Shown: positions 10,326 through 18,512 of the stretch, piece by piece | Numbering within the stretch: position 1 is the stretch's first letter | Layout: each line of letters starts with the position of its first letter | IMG/VR virus record: IMGVR_UViG_3300037502_001844 | Location: 1 to 32,572 of that record | Direction: 5' to 3' (one strand) | DNA: 32,572 bases | Source of the DNA: a virus | Notes under the pieces: generated by a model | Told to the model about the DNA's origin: nothing | What the model saw: only the letters and a program-made list of their open reading frames with translations | Databases searched by the model: none | Position numbers and translations under genes: made by a program

Positions 10326-11129
10326 TCAGTCCTTCATGTATGAGAGTTTGTCTTGAGATGCCCAAGGAACCAGGGCAGAGATATTTTCAATGGTCATGCC
10401 CAGTTTGGGACATTGAACGAATTTAGCAGCAGTTTCTCGCCTATCAAGGCACCGAGTGCAGGCATGAACGTAATCGACATTGTGCCGCTTATTCTCCTTC
10501 TCGCGCCATTTACCGTGCCACTTCTCGTAGCGATCAAAGTCAATCGGCACCTGATTAGCCTCGATGTAGTCCCAAACGTCATCATGCGTCCAGTCACGAA
10601 GCGGGAACATCATGGTTGTTCCATCCGGCAGTGTTCTAGCCTCGATGCGGGTTCCTGCGTCACCTCCAACGATAGGGTCAGAATCGCATCCTTTATGACC
10701 GATCCAGAGTGCCTGGAACGGTGTTGTCTCCAGTAGAGTCTGCTTCGGACGGTGCAGGATGTCCAAAGCACAAACCCAAGGTTGTGTAGAGATAGGATCG
10801 ACGATCCCAGTCGGGCAGGTCAGTTTGGTACCGTTGATCTGGTAGAGGTTCTGCACCTCAAATTCGTCATCGGTCTGCTGAAAAGCTGATTCCTGCGGAT
10901 GCCAGGTGTAAACCAGCAGATTCCAGCGACGAATAAGATCGTCATGGAACTCGTATTTGGACGGTTGCCAAGGTTCGCGGAAGAAGATGACCGGCAGGTT
11001 GTAGCTCATCTGCCGCATGATATGCAGCAGTGCCATACTATCCTTGCCTCCAGACCAGCAGACCATGCCAGACGGCATTTTAGCCATGCCATCAGCAATG
11101 ATTTGCTTTGTTCTTTCGAGCTTAGTCAT
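10326..11129 (-). CDS. PAPS reductase / ATP sulfurylase-like (N-type ATP pyrophosphatase) protein
   Basis: The 267 aa protein has the PP-loop SGGKDS (residues 26-31) and, later, PLRDWTHDDVWDYI, a hallmark of the PAPS reductase / CysD-type family. This family either adenylates a substrate or reduces phosphoadenylyl-sulfate. A C-terminal CTRC pair could bind metal. The ECGLH redox motif of assimilatory PAPS reductases is not visible, so reduction should not be assumed. Phage members of the family are common but of uncertain role (sulfur metabolism, DNA phosphorothioate-like chemistry, nucleotide modification). Unusually, it is embedded between internal virion protein genes, its start overlapping the stop of the upstream gene as TAATG. 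Confidence 0.88.
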   Translation of the reverse strand: MTKLERTKQIIADGMAKMPSGMVCWSGGKDSMALLHIMRQMSYNLPVIFFREPWQPSKYEFHDDLIRRWNLLVYTWHPQESAFQQTDDEFEVQNLYQINGTKLTCPTGIVDPISTQPWVCALDILHRPKQTLLETTPFQALWIGHKGCDSDPIVGGDAGTRIEARTLPDGTTMMFPLRDWTHDDVWDYIEANQVPIDFDRYEKWHGKWREKENKRHNVDYVHACTRCLDRRETAAKFVQCPKLGMTIENISALVPWASQDKLSYMKD

Positions 11130-11959: not shown

Positions 11960-12284
11960 GGAATTTAGAGGCTAGGGTTTGATATTCGTAAGCGTGAATC
12001 TTGTTCATACCATGCCGCTGAAACAGCACGTAATCAAGACGGAATGGAAGACGTTTCTCAAAGTCTGTAAGGTCACCGGCAGCAAGGTGAATGAACCATG
12101 CATTCCACTTGTCGGTCTGAGTGAAGTATTCCTTGCCGTCCCAGAAGACCGGCTTGAACAGCATGAAGGACAGCGGTGATGACCAGACGAAACCGTTTTG
12201 CAAAAAGTGCGCCAACAAGCCTTCAAAGCTATCCTTTGGGAAGTGCTTTGCCAGCCAGTATTGCGCTTTCTGCCATGGTTGCAT
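11940..12284 (-). CDS. Conserved phage protein of tail module, 114 aa
   Basis: It contains many aromatic residues (WQKAQYWLAKHFP, FVWSSPLSFML, WNAWFIHLAAGDL) and the pattern LPFRLDYVLFQRHG, familiar from small proteins next to phage tail and internal-virion genes. T7 gp13-like proteins occupy this place in some podoviruses, but the similarity is too faint to name it. No signal peptide or clear membrane segment is seen. The start overlaps the stop of the tail fibre gene as TAATG. Confidence 0.72.
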   Translation of the reverse strand: MQPWQKAQYWLAKHFPKDSFEGLLAHFLQNGFVWSSPLSFMLFKPVFWDGKEYFTQTDKWNAWFIHLAAGDLTDFEKRLPFRLDYVLFQRHGMNKIHAYEYQTLASKFHGIVHT

Positions 12285-13576
12285 TACGCCAAGTCTCCGA
12301 AGACGGTGAACATGATCGAGCCAGCATTGACTGCAACAGTAGTGTAGCGAGTGCTGATGCTAAACGTGCGGGTGGTTTTGTCGAAACCCGTTGCTCCAAT
12401 GTAGTTAAAGGAGGTCGTGCCGTATTCATTCGCGTCTTCACGACTGAAAGTCGCGACGATGGCATAGTTCGTGTTCGCCATAGCGTTGCTGAAGTTGATC
12501 TGAGCAGTGTTGTCCGTTGTGCTGCTCTTGAAGGCAGAAGAAATGCCGGAACCAGAAACACTCAGTGCATACCAGCTAACATTTCCATTTGCTAGACCTG
12601 ATGCAACGACAACCTGAAATTCGTCTGCATTAGTGACCGCAGAGACGCTATACCACCCATCATAGGTGGTGCTGGGGAAGTTGAGATACAGAACATCACC
12701 CACCTTCAACCCGTGAGCAACTTTTGAGATGCTTACAGTATTGGAAGAAACCGTATAGGATGCCGTGACCGTCGTGGTGTCAGCAGTGCGAATCGAAATG
12801 CACCCCCAGGCTTTAGGCAGGCAGGCTTGCACTCCCTTCAGCTTACCAGAGTCAGAGGCATCGCGGATCAGCACAGAGTCACCTGCCGCATCACTGACAT
12901 TGGTAAGCGTCACCGTGGGACTGCCTTGGATGTTGCCAGCCAAGGTGCCTTGCAGGGTCGTTGTCTTCTCATACCAAGAGACGTTGCCGGTCGTCGCACC
13001 AGAGTTTGCAACGGTGATAGTGAAAGTGTCGTCGGTCAGCTTAGTCACCGAGTAACTGCCGGAAAGCGCAGCATTATTCTCAATCGAGAACCACCTAGTG
13101 TCGCTTGTGACCAGACCATGCGCCACCTTGGTCACCGTCAAGGTCGTAGTCGAACGTGAATAGGTTCCAGTCACAGCGGCAGTTCCAAGCGTCGTATTCC
13201 CGTTGACAATGACGTTGCCGGAAGCAGTCAGAGTGCCGCCGATGGTTGCAGTGCTGGAGGTCGTCAACGTGCTGGTCGTCATGCCAGCAGTATTGGTGAG
13301 CGTTCCGGTGACGGTCGCATTACCGCTAACGGTAAGCGAGGAAGCTGTGGTTGCGGGCAGAGCAGCAGCAATATTGGCAAGCGTGATCTTCTTGACCGCA
13401 CCACCGTCAACATCGTTGACCATGAATGTGTCTGCGCTATCTGGAACAGTAAGGGCAGATTGTCCTTCAATGAAGTCAGGAAGCGGACTTGCCTCGACTA
13501 CATGATTGTTAAGAGCAGACGCGGTAAGAGTCTGTCCTGTGGTAAAGGTTCCGTGACCAGAGACGAGTTTAGCCAT
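12284..13576 (-). CDS. Tail fibre protein, 430 aa
   Basis: The N-terminal 70 residues (FTTGQTLTASALNNHVVEA) are the usual virion-attachment start of short fibre proteins. Residues 75-145 are a Thr/Ser/Gly-rich beta repeat (ATVTGTLTNTAG, TATIGGTLTASGN). Two related modules follow at about 136-203 and 268-337, each with VAHGL, a GSYSV or GWYSV strand and a closing GNVSWY. The last 90 residues (AQINFSNAMANTNYAI through TVFGDLA) form a compact beta domain, probably the receptor-binding tip. It lies two bases beyond the nozzle gene. No chaperone or adhesin gene follows, so the protein probably folds unaided as a trimer, which is inference. Confidence 0.85.
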   Translation of the reverse strand: MAKLVSGHGTFTTGQTLTASALNNHVVEASPLPDFIEGQSALTVPDSADTFMVNDVDGGAVKKITLANIAAALPATTASSLTVSGNATVTGTLTNTAGMTTSTLTTSSTATIGGTLTASGNVIVNGNTTLGTAAVTGTYSRSTTTLTVTKVAHGLVTSDTRWFSIENNAALSGSYSVTKLTDDTFTITVANSGATTGNVSWYEKTTTLQGTLAGNIQGSPTVTLTNVSDAAGDSVLIRDASDSGKLKGVQACLPKAWGCISIRTADTTTVTASYTVSSNTVSISKVAHGLKVGDVLYLNFPSTTYDGWYSVSAVTNADEFQVVVASGLANGNVSWYALSVSGSGISSAFKSSTTDNTAQINFSNAMANTNYAIVATFSREDANEYGTTSFNYIGATGFDKTTRTFSISTRYTTVAVNAGSIMFTVFGDLA

Positions 13577-15503: not shown

Positions 15504-16055
15504 TTAGACAGCAGCAAGGATGTTCGCCAGTTCCTGACAGGCAAGGGAACGTAGGTCAGGATCGGTCATCTTCTTGAAGTCATCGGGGTTGTCGATGAAC
15601 CCGATTTCCAGCAGGATACATGGTTGGAAACTCATCACAGCAAGCCGGGAATGCTGTGACGATCCCTCGGTCTTGATGCCTCGATCCTTGGTGCCAAGGG
15701 CTTTGACCACGGCATCGTTGATGGATTTTGCCAATGCTTTGTTGCTTTCGCCTCGGTAAAAGGACTCTGTGCCGCTTGCAGTGCCGTTAAAGGCGTTGCA
15801 GTGCAGGGAGAGCATCACCTTGCCTTTGTAGTCACGCGCTATGTCAGCACGCTCAGAAACGTGAGCAGGATCGGAAGCGTTTGCTCTGGTGCGGATCACC
15901 TTGTGACCCAAGCATTGCAGGAAAGCGCGGATCTCGTTTGCCCAGTCCATGACGATTTCCGCCTCTGTGACCTTGTTGATGCCAACGGCACCGGGGTCAT
16001 AGACATCAGCACGGCGGTTTCCCATGCCGTGACCGGGATCTAGAATGATCGTCAT
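15504..16055 (-). CDS. N-acetylmuramoyl-L-alanine amidase (Amidase_3) endolysin
   Basis: The 183 aa protein is a single Amidase_3 domain. Zinc-binding and catalytic positions are visible: ILDPGHG with His9, EAE at 31-33, SLHCNAF with His85, and LLEIGF with catalytic Glu150. The enzyme cuts the bond between MurNAc and L-Ala in peptidoglycan to release progeny. No signal peptide or cell-wall-binding domain is present, so export depends on the holin. Its start overlaps the holin-like gene stop as ATGA, making a classic lysis cassette. Confidence 0.93.
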   Translation of the reverse strand: MTIILDPGHGMGNRRADVYDPGAVGINKVTEAEIVMDWANEIRAFLQCLGHKVIRTRANASDPAHVSERADIARDYKGKVMLSLHCNAFNGTASGTESFYRGESNKALAKSINDAVVKALGTKDRGIKTEGSSQHSRLAVMSFQPCILLEIGFIDNPDDFKKMTDPDLRSLACQELANILAAV

Positions 16056-16264
16056 TTCTTCGGCGTGATGACGACAAGGGCAAGACCGGCAGCGGCCTGA
16101 ACAAGTTCACCGGCAACGTTGGTGATCTCAGGAGGAAGCGGAACACCGAAGGCGGTCAGCAGGGTAACAAGGCCAAGCCAGGTGCTTTTCTCGCGGAGTT
16201 TGGAGAGGATGGTTTTCATAGGTTTAGAGGGTCTGAACAGCGGGTGGTAGTTGGGGGACTTCAT
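16052..16264 (-). CDS. Putative holin, small membrane protein
   Basis: The full open frame gives 70 aa; the internal ATG at 16219 gives 55 aa. The region after MKTILSKLREKSTW holds one or two hydrophobic stretches (LGLVTLLTAFGVPL and VQAAAGLALVVIT) separated by a short polar turn, the form of small phage holins. The longer start begins inside the stop of the upstream gene (TGATG), which argues for it; the shorter start looks more like family members. It is followed directly by the amidase. Membrane topology is inferred. Confidence 0.72.
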   Translation of the reverse strand: MKSPNYHPLFRPSKPMKTILSKLREKSTWLGLVTLLTAFGVPLPPEITNVAGELVQAAAGLALVVITPKK

Positions 16265-16518
16265 CAGTGTGAGATGTTTCGCACTTCCGAAAGCAGTCGA
16301 TGCAGGTTCAAGCGATCCTTTTCACAGTCATCGGACTTCTTCTCCAGTTTCTCGACCTGCTTAGTTAGTCCGTCAAGGCGTTCTTTGCGTTCACTATTCA
16401 AGGCAGTGACCAGCTTTTCGTTGCCTCTAGTTAGCCACCAGACAGCAAGAAGCAGCAAAGCGGCGACCGGGCCCGCTCCAATGACGGGCTGAATGATAGA
16501 AATAAACTCAGGCGGCAT
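16264..16518 (-). CDS. TM plus coiled-coil protein (spanin- or holin-like)
   Basis: Starting at MPPEFISIIQ, the 84 aa product has one hydrophobic segment (GAGPVAALLLLAVWWL) and then a highly charged coiled coil (LDGLTKQVEKLEKKSDDCEKDRLNLHRLL). This architecture suits an inner-membrane spanin (Rz-like) or an accessory holin. An outer-membrane lipoprotein spanin partner is not evident nearby. The frame continues upstream to 16590, but that extension overlaps the fusion gene by 59 bases and is basic and unstructured. The stop overlaps the next start. Confidence 0.65.
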   Translation of the reverse strand: MPPEFISIIQPVIGAGPVAALLLLAVWWLTRGNEKLVTALNSERKERLDGLTKQVEKLEKKSDDCEKDRLNLHRLLSEVRNISH

Positions 16519-16531
16519 ACTGAATTGTAGA

Positions 16532-17923
16532 TCACGAGTTGATAAAAGCAAGACTAGTGTGGAACGCCGGAATCTCCGACAATGCTTCAAGGTGTTCGCT
16601 CGTCATCTGCTCTTTCCAGCCGGGATTGGCTGATGTATTGAGCTTCGGCCCGGCTAGGTGAGGACTTCCGGTCATCTCGATCATTACCTTATCGAGGTTT
16701 TCGAGGCTGAACGGCAGGCAGTAGTCCAGCAGGTTATGCCAGTCAGGAAGCGACCAGAGTTGAGGATACTTGATGACCTTGGTGAAGAACTGGTCGAAAG
16801 TGCCAAGGTCGGTATCGGGTTCGTCGAAGAAATGCACCTCACCGCTTTCGGCGATCCTGCGCTTGCCGAAGTGATACAGCGAGCAAATCAATTCTCGCGG
16901 ATCACGGTAAAACATGACCGTCTTCCAGCCGTTCTTGCGTGCCAGGATAACCTGCTCGGCAGTCGTCGAGACGTGGTGCTGGTGCAGGAAGGTGAACGGC
17001 TCGCTGCTGGTCAGGTGATGCTCCAGTTCCTCGGCAGTCCAGTCACGGTGGAGCTTGAATGGTTCTCTCCAGCTGTCCTTCTTGGTATATCCGGTCAGAA
17101 TACGGTTAAATGCCGTCGAGGTGTAGACTCCCGCTGCCTTGCCGTAGTGGATGAACCAGATCTTCTCTGGATGCCCAAGTTGCTTGTGAGCATAGGCAGC
17201 AACGTCATCCGGCAAATGACTCCAGACCTCGGGACGCAGAGCAAGCGTTCCTTGGCGGATGTAGTCCGTCATGTAGAGGTTGTCACCCAGATGTAGGTGG
17301 TAGCTCGCAACGCCTCGGGCTGGCTTACCTCGCCAGAATCCCCAGTTGTGCTGAAGCGGAAAGTAGTCAGTCTGCCACTTGTGCGGAACCATTCCCAAGC
17401 ATCCCTGCTCGTAGAAGGCATCTCGCATCGTCGGGTTGAGGTATTCTTGCCTCCACCAACGAACGAACTCCAGTGACCTCGACCAGAGCAGTCCAGCGTT
17501 GAACAAGCCAAACTTGGCAACATTCTCCTGCATATTTGGCGTGACGCTAAGGTTCAGCGACAGCATCACTTCACCGACGTTTGGAGGAAGCTGGATCAGT
17601 TGCATGAACACGATGTCAGCATCGAAGAACAGGGCATCACCGTGCTTCTCAATGGCATATTCCATCGCATCCATCTTCAGCCGGATGGCATCTGGACGGT
17701 GGTAGAGGTTGTGCAACTTGACCTTGCTAGGCAGGTCACCGAGATCTTGCACAAGCGGCACCGCTCCTGCTTGGCGGATAGCTTCAGCCTGAGCTTCCTG
17801 GCAGGCAACGTAGATCGGCAGTCCTGGGTGATGCTTCCTTAAACTGAAAATCGCTACCAGACACTCTGGCAGCGTTTCAGTGGTCGTAACCGTGCAGGCA
17901 GACTGCATTGCTTGCTGACTCAT
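16532..17923 (-). CDS. Glycosyltransferase-sulfotransferase fusion protein
   Basis: The 463 aa protein has two parts. Residues 1-270 look like a GT-A fold glycosyltransferase of the nucleotide-diphospho-sugar transferase type: a Rossmann-like start, RLKMDAMEYA, a metal-binding FFDADIVF (DAD at 101-103), FNAGLLW (141-147) and a closing WFIHYGKA. Residues about 305-463 match the sulfotransferase half that binds the 3' phosphate of PAPS, MFYRDPRELICSLYHF (337-352), and end with a PGWKEQMTSE block like the GDWK region. The N-terminal 5'-phosphosulfate loop is not evident, so activity is uncertain. It couples to the upstream 77-aa gene (ATGA) and precedes the lysis genes. It may decorate host envelope glycans or the virion. 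Confidence 0.8.
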   Translation of the reverse strand: MSQQAMQSACTVTTTETLPECLVAIFSLRKHHPGLPIYVACQEAQAEAIRQAGAVPLVQDLGDLPSKVKLHNLYHRPDAIRLKMDAMEYAIEKHGDALFFDADIVFMQLIQLPPNVGEVMLSLNLSVTPNMQENVAKFGLFNAGLLWSRSLEFVRWWRQEYLNPTMRDAFYEQGCLGMVPHKWQTDYFPLQHNWGFWRGKPARGVASYHLHLGDNLYMTDYIRQGTLALRPEVWSHLPDDVAAYAHKQLGHPEKIWFIHYGKAAGVYTSTAFNRILTGYTKKDSWREPFKLHRDWTAEELEHHLTSSEPFTFLHQHHVSTTAEQVILARKNGWKTVMFYRDPRELICSLYHFGKRRIAESGEVHFFDEPDTDLGTFDQFFTKVIKYPQLWSLPDWHNLLDYCLPFSLENLDKVMIEMTGSPHLAGPKLNTSANPGWKEQMTSEHLEALSEIPAFHTSLAFINS

Positions 17924-18153
17924 TTGAGCAGTTCAGCAAACTCTCCAGAGTCGATCTTGGCCTGAATGATCGCTTCCGCTTCCTCGGTCGTCCAGTCCTC
18001 GTTGTAGGTGGCACCTTCGCCGAGGACAAAGCCCTTGCCGGTGAGCGGCGGGAAGATAGCAAACAGACGCTTGCTTTGAGTATTGTCGAAGTAGACAGGA
18101 AACACTTCCTTGAAGGTCAGGTTCCCTTTCTTGATGGGCGGATTTAGGATCAT
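17920..18153 (-). CDS. Hypothetical small protein, 77 aa
   Basis: Not recognised. The sequence has an N-terminal LNPPIKKGN and the aromatic KEVFPVYFDN, and ends with an acidic helix (EEAEAIIQAKIDSGEF). It is soluble with no signal peptide. Overlaps on both sides (ATGA with the FN3-like gene and with the glycosyltransferase fusion) show that it belongs to the late operon. A minor virion or tail-accessory role is plausible but unproven. Confidence 0.7.
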   Translation of the reverse strand: MILNPPIKKGNLTFKEVFPVYFDNTQSKRLFAIFPPLTGKGFVLGEGATYNEDWTTEEAEAIIQAKIDSGEFAELLK

Positions 18154-18512
18154 GGGTAAGGTGCGCTTGGTGTGGTTCCACTCAGGAGTTCTTCTGTCGA
18201 GTCAGCATATCCTGCTTTACGTGACTTGATCGAGCAAGTCCATGCTTCATCTGGCGGGAGTTGAACGCCTTGACTAATAACACCAAAGGGAATGTTGAAC
18301 GTCAATGTTCCAGAGTTCGCGCCGACCAAAACCATGTAATAATTATCAGGCTCAGGGCCGGACGATGGTGCATCCCATGTAAATGTCACCAAGTAGTCTG
18401 GATTCAGATATAAGTCTGAATAAGCGAACGAAGTAGGCGGCATAAGACCAGACAGCAAACCGCCGCCTTGTATCGTGCTACCCAACACCAAAGATATGAA
18501 CAGATCGTTCAT
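18150..18512 (-). CDS. Ig/FN3-like small virion protein, 120 aa
   Basis: After a hydrophobic, Gly-rich first 30 residues (ISLVLGSTIQGGGLLSGLM), the segment YLVTFTWDAPSSG through TCSIKSRKAGYADS has the strand pattern of a fibronectin type III or Ig-like domain. WDAP lies in an early strand, and the W-x-C...S-x-K-x-GY pattern in the late strands. Such domains decorate phage capsids and tails and bind surface carbohydrates weakly. The gene sits between the capsid/adaptor block and the glycosyltransferase. The N-terminal stretch might be a membrane or virion anchor. Confidence 0.65.
   Translation of the reverse strand: MNDLFISLVLGSTIQGGGLLSGLMPPTSFAYSDLYLNPDYLVTFTWDAPSSGPEPDNYYMVLVGANSGTLTFNIPFGVISQGVQLPPDEAWTCSIKSRKAGYADSTEELLSGTTPSAPYP

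Follow-up and report, generated by a model that had tools for sequence, protein, structure and literature searches.

The closest described counterparts of the phage protein reported here come from two enzyme superfamilies: sulfotransferases such as heparan sulfate 2-O-sulfotransferase (HS2ST; PDB 4ndz/3f5f) and the cytosolic SULTs, and glycosyltransferases of the GT8/Nucleotid_trans GT-A type (glycogenin and LgtC; PF03407). The residues that define polysaccharide sulfotransferases are the PSB Lys and Gly, the PB (helix) Ser, and a His base (PMC11625862), and in HS2ST the putative catalytic base is His142 (PMC6094399). NDST likewise combines two successive steps of glycan synthesis in a single chain, the sulfotransferase being C-terminal, although this is a eukaryotic enzyme and the partner of its sulfotransferase is a deacetylase instead of a glycosyltransferase. 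Marine phages, including OM43-phage metagenomic genomes and Synechococcus phage S-SRM01, carry sulfotransferase genes (PF13469, Sulfotransfer_3) whose role has been called unclear (PMC10580990), and virion glycosylation has been reported for mycobacteriophages (Freeman et al., 2023, as cited in PMC12619734). Among open-licence papers, we found neither a report of sulfated virion glycans nor a description of a glycosyltransferase-sulfotransferase fusion of the kind described below.

The window (the whole stretch of DNA analysed here) is a virus record 32,572 bases long, with genes in the order terminase, portal, scaffold, major head protein, small virion genes, the fusion gene, lysis genes, and virion proteins (Table 1). 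This gene order agrees with the late operon setting given in a preliminary description of the sequence, and the 463-residue reading frame reported there without a strand is present on the minus strand. The major head protein has at most ∼29% likeness to the head protein of any named phage. The stop codon of the small late gene upstream overlaps the start codon of the fusion gene, and the two are therefore probably co-translated, judging from this arrangement. The full-length AF2 model of the fusion protein has a pLDDT of 89.3 and a pTM of 0.87. Elsewhere in the late region, the proteins encoded at 18150–18512 and 12284–13576 diverge rapidly (40–45% and 71% identity, respectively, between otherwise similar phages), and are candidates for receptor-binding or surface parts.

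Table 1. Coordinates of the features discussed in the text (window positions unless a relative is named).
Feature	Residues	Position	Strand	Basis
Fused glycosyltransferase-sulfotransferase gene	463 aa	16532..17923	minus	ORF reading, full-length AF2 model, conserved full-length relatives
Small late gene upstream of the fusion gene		17920..18153	minus	Stop overlaps fusion ATG (ATGA)
Lysis cassette downstream of the fusion gene (108-aa and 70-aa proteins, amidase endolysin)		15504..16590	minus	
GT8-like GT-A glycosyltransferase half	∼1–215	17279..17923	minus	VIA structural matches, standalone homologues
DAD metal/nucleotide-sugar motif	D101-A102-D103	17615..17623	minus	Residue conservation
Sulfotransferase half	∼252–463	16535..17170	minus	Stand-alone model, structural matches
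Predicted 5'-phosphosulfate (PAPS) loop, FIHYGKAAGVY	257–267	17123..17155	minus	Residue conservation
Candidate catalytic base His316	H314-Q-H316	16976..16984	minus	Residue conservation
Predicted 3'-phosphate site	R340-D-P...S348	16880..16906	minus	Residue conservation; sole stretch seen by Pfam Sulfotransfer_1
GDWK-like C-terminal motif (NTSANPG)	N429-x-S431-xxx-G435	16619..16639	minus	Residue conservation
PP-loop ATPase, PAPS-reductase/CysD superfamily (P0002), late virion region		10326..11129	minus	Pfam PF01507, 52 bits
Complete APS kinase gene		L004 6881–7459, same in L003	minus	

The fold search with the full-length protein listed glycosyltransferase matches only, as the N-terminal half filled the list, and the sulfotransferase half was hence predicted and searched alone. 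Modelled in this way (pLDDT 89.5, pTM 0.85), it is matched by sulfotransferases in all 50 of the 50 PDB entries listed by VIA, the best being HS2ST (4ndz; Z 12.9, rmsd 3.6, 195 residues aligned), with SULT7A1 (5x2b; Z 12.1, rmsd 3.3, 191 aligned) also among them. P-loop kinases occur among the Foldseek matches as well, but mostly with weaker scores, so that the half is best matched by sulfotransferases and not by P-loop folds generally. The likeness to HS2ST and the SULTs extends over the whole domain at ∼15% identity, which is out of reach of sequence search; unlike those enzymes, the phage domain is fused to a GT-A domain. No significant match to the fusion protein was obtained in a PDB sequence search, and a choline-kinase match (E 0.12), which does not cover the motifs, was set aside as chance. 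A profile search of the C-terminal half, suggested in the preliminary description as a check, detected Sulfotransfer_1 (PF00685) as a trace confined to the 3'-phosphate motif, at 18.4 bits for the half and 15.2 bits for the whole protein, and did not reach the 22-bit cut-off. Neither Sulfotransfer_2 (PF03567) nor Sulfotransfer_3 (PF13469) was matched in the Pfam profile search, and traces of Rod_C, PriX, and DUF488 were dismissed as inconsistent and under cut-off. Because Pfam gives only this sub-threshold trace, the half looks like a previously undescribed sulfotransferase subfamily. It shares phage carriage with the marine phage genes, but those are named by PF13469, whereas the present family scores below the cut-offs of Pfam and most of its members are glycosyltransferase fusions.

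Enzymes of the PAPS-dependent sulfotransferase superfamily are recognized by their fold, by a strand-loop-helix PAPS loop with a conserved Lys (or Arg) and Gly, by a His or Glu as catalytic base, and by a 3'-phosphate site with a helix Ser and a strand Arg; the predicted model and the residues conserved across 24 viral sequences supply a counterpart for each. The predicted PAPS loop is set between a strand (254–259) and a helix (263–275) of the full-length model, and its H259, K262, and G265 are invariant (24/24). Position 266, usually Thr in PAPS loops, is Val in 19 of the sequences, Ser in two, Thr in two, and Ile in one. HYGKxxGVY stands here in place of the usual PKxGT-type loop of HS2ST and the SULTs. 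Two divergent members, L051 and the second copy in L016, retain an AKxGGTY form, and this points to FIHYGKxxGVY as a PAPS loop of derived form; the replacement of Thr by Val in most members could alter the affinity for PAPS. The candidate base H316 is located at the end of the strand preceding the 3'-phosphate strand in the model and is conserved in all 24 sequences (H314 in 17), in agreement with the putative base His142 of HS2ST. Invariance (24/24) extends to R340, P342, and S348 of the 3'-phosphate site and to N429, S431, and G435 of the C-terminal motif, and K262, G265, S348, and H316 agree with the defining residues given in PMC11625862. The intact Arg/Ser pair of the predicted 3'-phosphate site argues for PAPS rather than another nucleotide.

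The N-terminal half resembles GT8-type GT-A enzymes over residues 4–252 of the full model (Z ∼16.5), the VIA matches including human glycogenin (3t7n; Z 16.6, rmsd 3.5, 216 aligned) and LgtC (1g9r; Z 16.4, rmsd 3.2, 221 aligned). In common with these enzymes, it has the predicted GT-A fold, a DxD motif (D101 and D103 invariant in all 22 ungapped sequences), and late conserved His residues (H209 and H211, 23/23). It differs in that its C-terminal helices run into the sulfotransferase and in being too divergent for a Pfam match: the window protein has no match to PF03407/GT8 in this half, and one relative matches PF03407 at E 0.0013.

Both halves are complete, conserved domains, and the reading of a glycosyltransferase plus a sulfotransferase in the preliminary description was essentially right. 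The DAD motif of a GT-A enzyme, the 3'-phosphate motif (YRDPREL..CSLYHF, residues 339–352), and the GDWK-like end (NPGWKEQ, 433–439) that it named are all in place, and structure prediction of both halves, which it proposed, returned a GT8-like GT-A and a sulfotransferase fold. Where it judged the 5'-phosphosulfate loop not evident, the loop FIHYGKAAGVY was found; it was probably missed because the domain was taken to start at residue 270 instead of ∼252, which dropped the strand and the first half of the loop (FIHYGK, 257–262). Two of its explanations for the apparent absence can be revisited accordingly: an odd loop describes FIHYGKxxGVY well, as a PAPS loop in which the usual Thr is mostly replaced by Val, and a degenerate domain is mostly answered by the complete fold and the invariant cofactor residues.

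A total of 15 distinct fusions (<95% identical), including that of the window, were identified, all in uncultivated viral contigs. A direct scan retrieved near-identical pieces (L002, L005) and full-length relatives at 46% (L003, L004), an alignment scan retrieved a relative at 71% (L006), and scans with the separate halves gave L008 and L012 and then a wide set. In L015 and L021, the glycosyltransferase and sulfotransferase are separate, adjacent, overlapping genes, while L012, L024, and L025 have glycosyltransferase-only proteins. These standalone glycosyltransferase genes stop near residue 245 of the window protein and standalone sulfotransferase genes start at ∼250, so the domain boundary is fixed independently of any model. 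The sulfotransferase tree groups the window gene with L006, L004, and L008 with support (100/98), and the split pair forms one separate clade. No close relatives were found in INPHARED phages, PLSDB plasmids, or GTDB genomes (the GTDB scan was pattern-based and may miss distant copies), and no cultured phage or host is known. Its members score too low to pass in any of the profile libraries used here, so the family is likely unannotated in virus catalogues. The two enzyme superfamilies are known; what appears to be new is the unrecognized sulfotransferase subfamily and the joining of the two enzymes, which was encountered here in uncultivated phages only.

Purifying selection acts on both halves (dN/dS 0.13 and 0.17 against L006), and together with the recurrence of the architecture in 15 proteins, this indicates that the fusion is not chance. 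The two halves also co-diverge (r 0.845, 0 of 5000 permutations), but any pair of domains encoded by a single gene should do so, and the correlation does not demonstrate that they work together. A product made in two steps would be consistent with halves that are fused, split yet adjacent, and co-diverging. In the comparison with L006, the fusion gene has a dS of ∼1.4–1.6, two to four times the value in the neighbouring head genes (0.4–0.8), and this excess of synonymous divergence suggests allele exchange at the locus.

The sulfate donor PAPS is made by APS kinase. In L003 and L004, a complete gene for this enzyme lies ∼0.5 kb from the fusion gene, divergently oriented, and is identified by Pfam (156 bits), by human PAPSS2 in the PDB (E 4e-34), and by a score above the TIGR00455 equivalog-domain cut-off (164.3 vs. 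138.7 bits). A similar kinase occurs in only 5 of 50,697 phage records, one of which is a 691-kb Salmonella record, and its neighbourhood with the fusion gene is therefore unlikely to be due to chance; the pairing represents one lineage only, as L003 and L004 are near-identical. An APS_kinase match on the L039 contig (26 bits) was discounted as too weak, and ATP sulfurylase (PF01747) was matched in none of 20 records. The PP-loop ATPase of the window is a possible sulfur link. It was not counted as a PAPS supply gene, being weak for both CysH and CysD and reaching neither NCBIfam equivalog cut-off, and it has no relative in INPHARED.

The folds, the invariant cofactor residues, and the adjacent APS kinase in a related lineage lead us to consider it probable that the fusion is a glycosyltransferase-sulfotransferase acting on glycans. 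Such a protein would be a soluble glycan-building enzyme with two active sites: the GT8-like domain would transfer a sugar from a nucleotide-sugar to an acceptor, with metal held by D101/D103 and His209, and the C-terminal PAPS-dependent sulfotransferase would then sulfate a hydroxyl, most simply on the same glycan; K262 and G265 would serve in the 5' loop, R340 and S348 would contact the 3'-phosphate, and His316 would be the base. We infer catalysis, PAPS use, the order of the steps, and the acceptor, and the same applies to the bifunctional action on one glycan and the host-surface or virion target put forward in the preliminary description. An alternative is that the C-terminal domain has kept the fold and lost sulfotransfer, and either binds PAP or another nucleotide or serves as the acceptor-binding module of a plain glycosyltransferase. 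The loop Val and the sub-threshold Pfam score would suit this explanation, but it appears improbable given that the Lys, His base, Arg, and Ser never vary across the 24 sequences in a domain under purifying selection, that this domain has a gene of its own in L015 and L021 and another fusion partner in L014, and that an APS kinase is a neighbour.

For the glycosyltransferase-sulfotransferase, the most likely acceptor would be a protein of the phage virion (tail fibre or neck) that is modified while the late genes are expressed, and we give the virion as target a little short of an even chance. It is favoured by gene neighbourhood: the fusion gene follows fibre-like or other virion genes in the window, L013, L018, L034, L041, and L021, and in the latter five the genes ahead are long and fibre-like, with collagen repeats and a lectin-like domain in the L034 protein. 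The L003/L004 gene has replication genes as neighbours and is outside the virion module, which weakens a virion target and would suit a host surface glycan (exopolysaccharide or LPS), where the same two activities would change host charge and block superinfection. Sugar and sulfate transferases are the right chemistry for that role, and the gene after the split pair in L021 matches Capsule_synth (PF05159); yet the translational coupling of the window gene to late virion/lysis genes probably means that it is expressed too late for the cell to be protected, and no signal peptide or membrane anchor was seen in the sequence by eye, so that a host-surface target seems rather unlikely. Phage DNA, with the glycosyltransferase acting on a modified base and the sulfotransferase on the sugar, is a very improbable target. 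Phages have been reported to modify nucleotides by means of glycosyltransferases and sulfotransferases (PMC10829341), and phage glycosyltransferases often act on DNA (PMC12619734). However, a thymidylate-synthase/hydroxymethylase homologue is absent from 16 of 17 records (several of them fragments), and the fusion gene is usually among virion genes and not nucleotide genes; a TET/JBP search gave no match, but its control likewise gave none. Taken with the virion target, an undescribed sulfotransferase subfamily joined to a glycosyltransferase, and to an APS kinase in one lineage, would tentatively point to phages that decorate their own virion fibres with sulfated glycans through a phage-encoded sulfoglycan pathway, a proposal that falls somewhat short of an even chance. 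If active, these would be bifunctional phage enzymes making sulfated glycans from a sugar donor and PAPS, giving phages a means of controlling the charge on the surface of virions or hosts; they would also bear directly on the question of why sulfotransferase genes occur in marine phages, and would constitute a compact natural module of glycosyltransferase and sulfotransferase.

Several members of the family carry further domains. An N-terminal extension (PRLKINDKEVGLRDLGDGLFEPKN-like) is common to the fusion or glycosyltransferase proteins of L013, L016–L019, L034–L042, L051, and L021, with no Pfam match in L013 and L021, and in L026 (6999–8810) the glycosyltransferase domain of the family is joined behind a different, GT2-like domain. 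In L014 (7911–9431), the sulfotransferase is fused to a nucleotidyltransferase-like domain (CWIAGGSI-like motif), which is encoded just downstream in L013 (8717–9340), L034 (5149–5721), and L041 (5295–5876).
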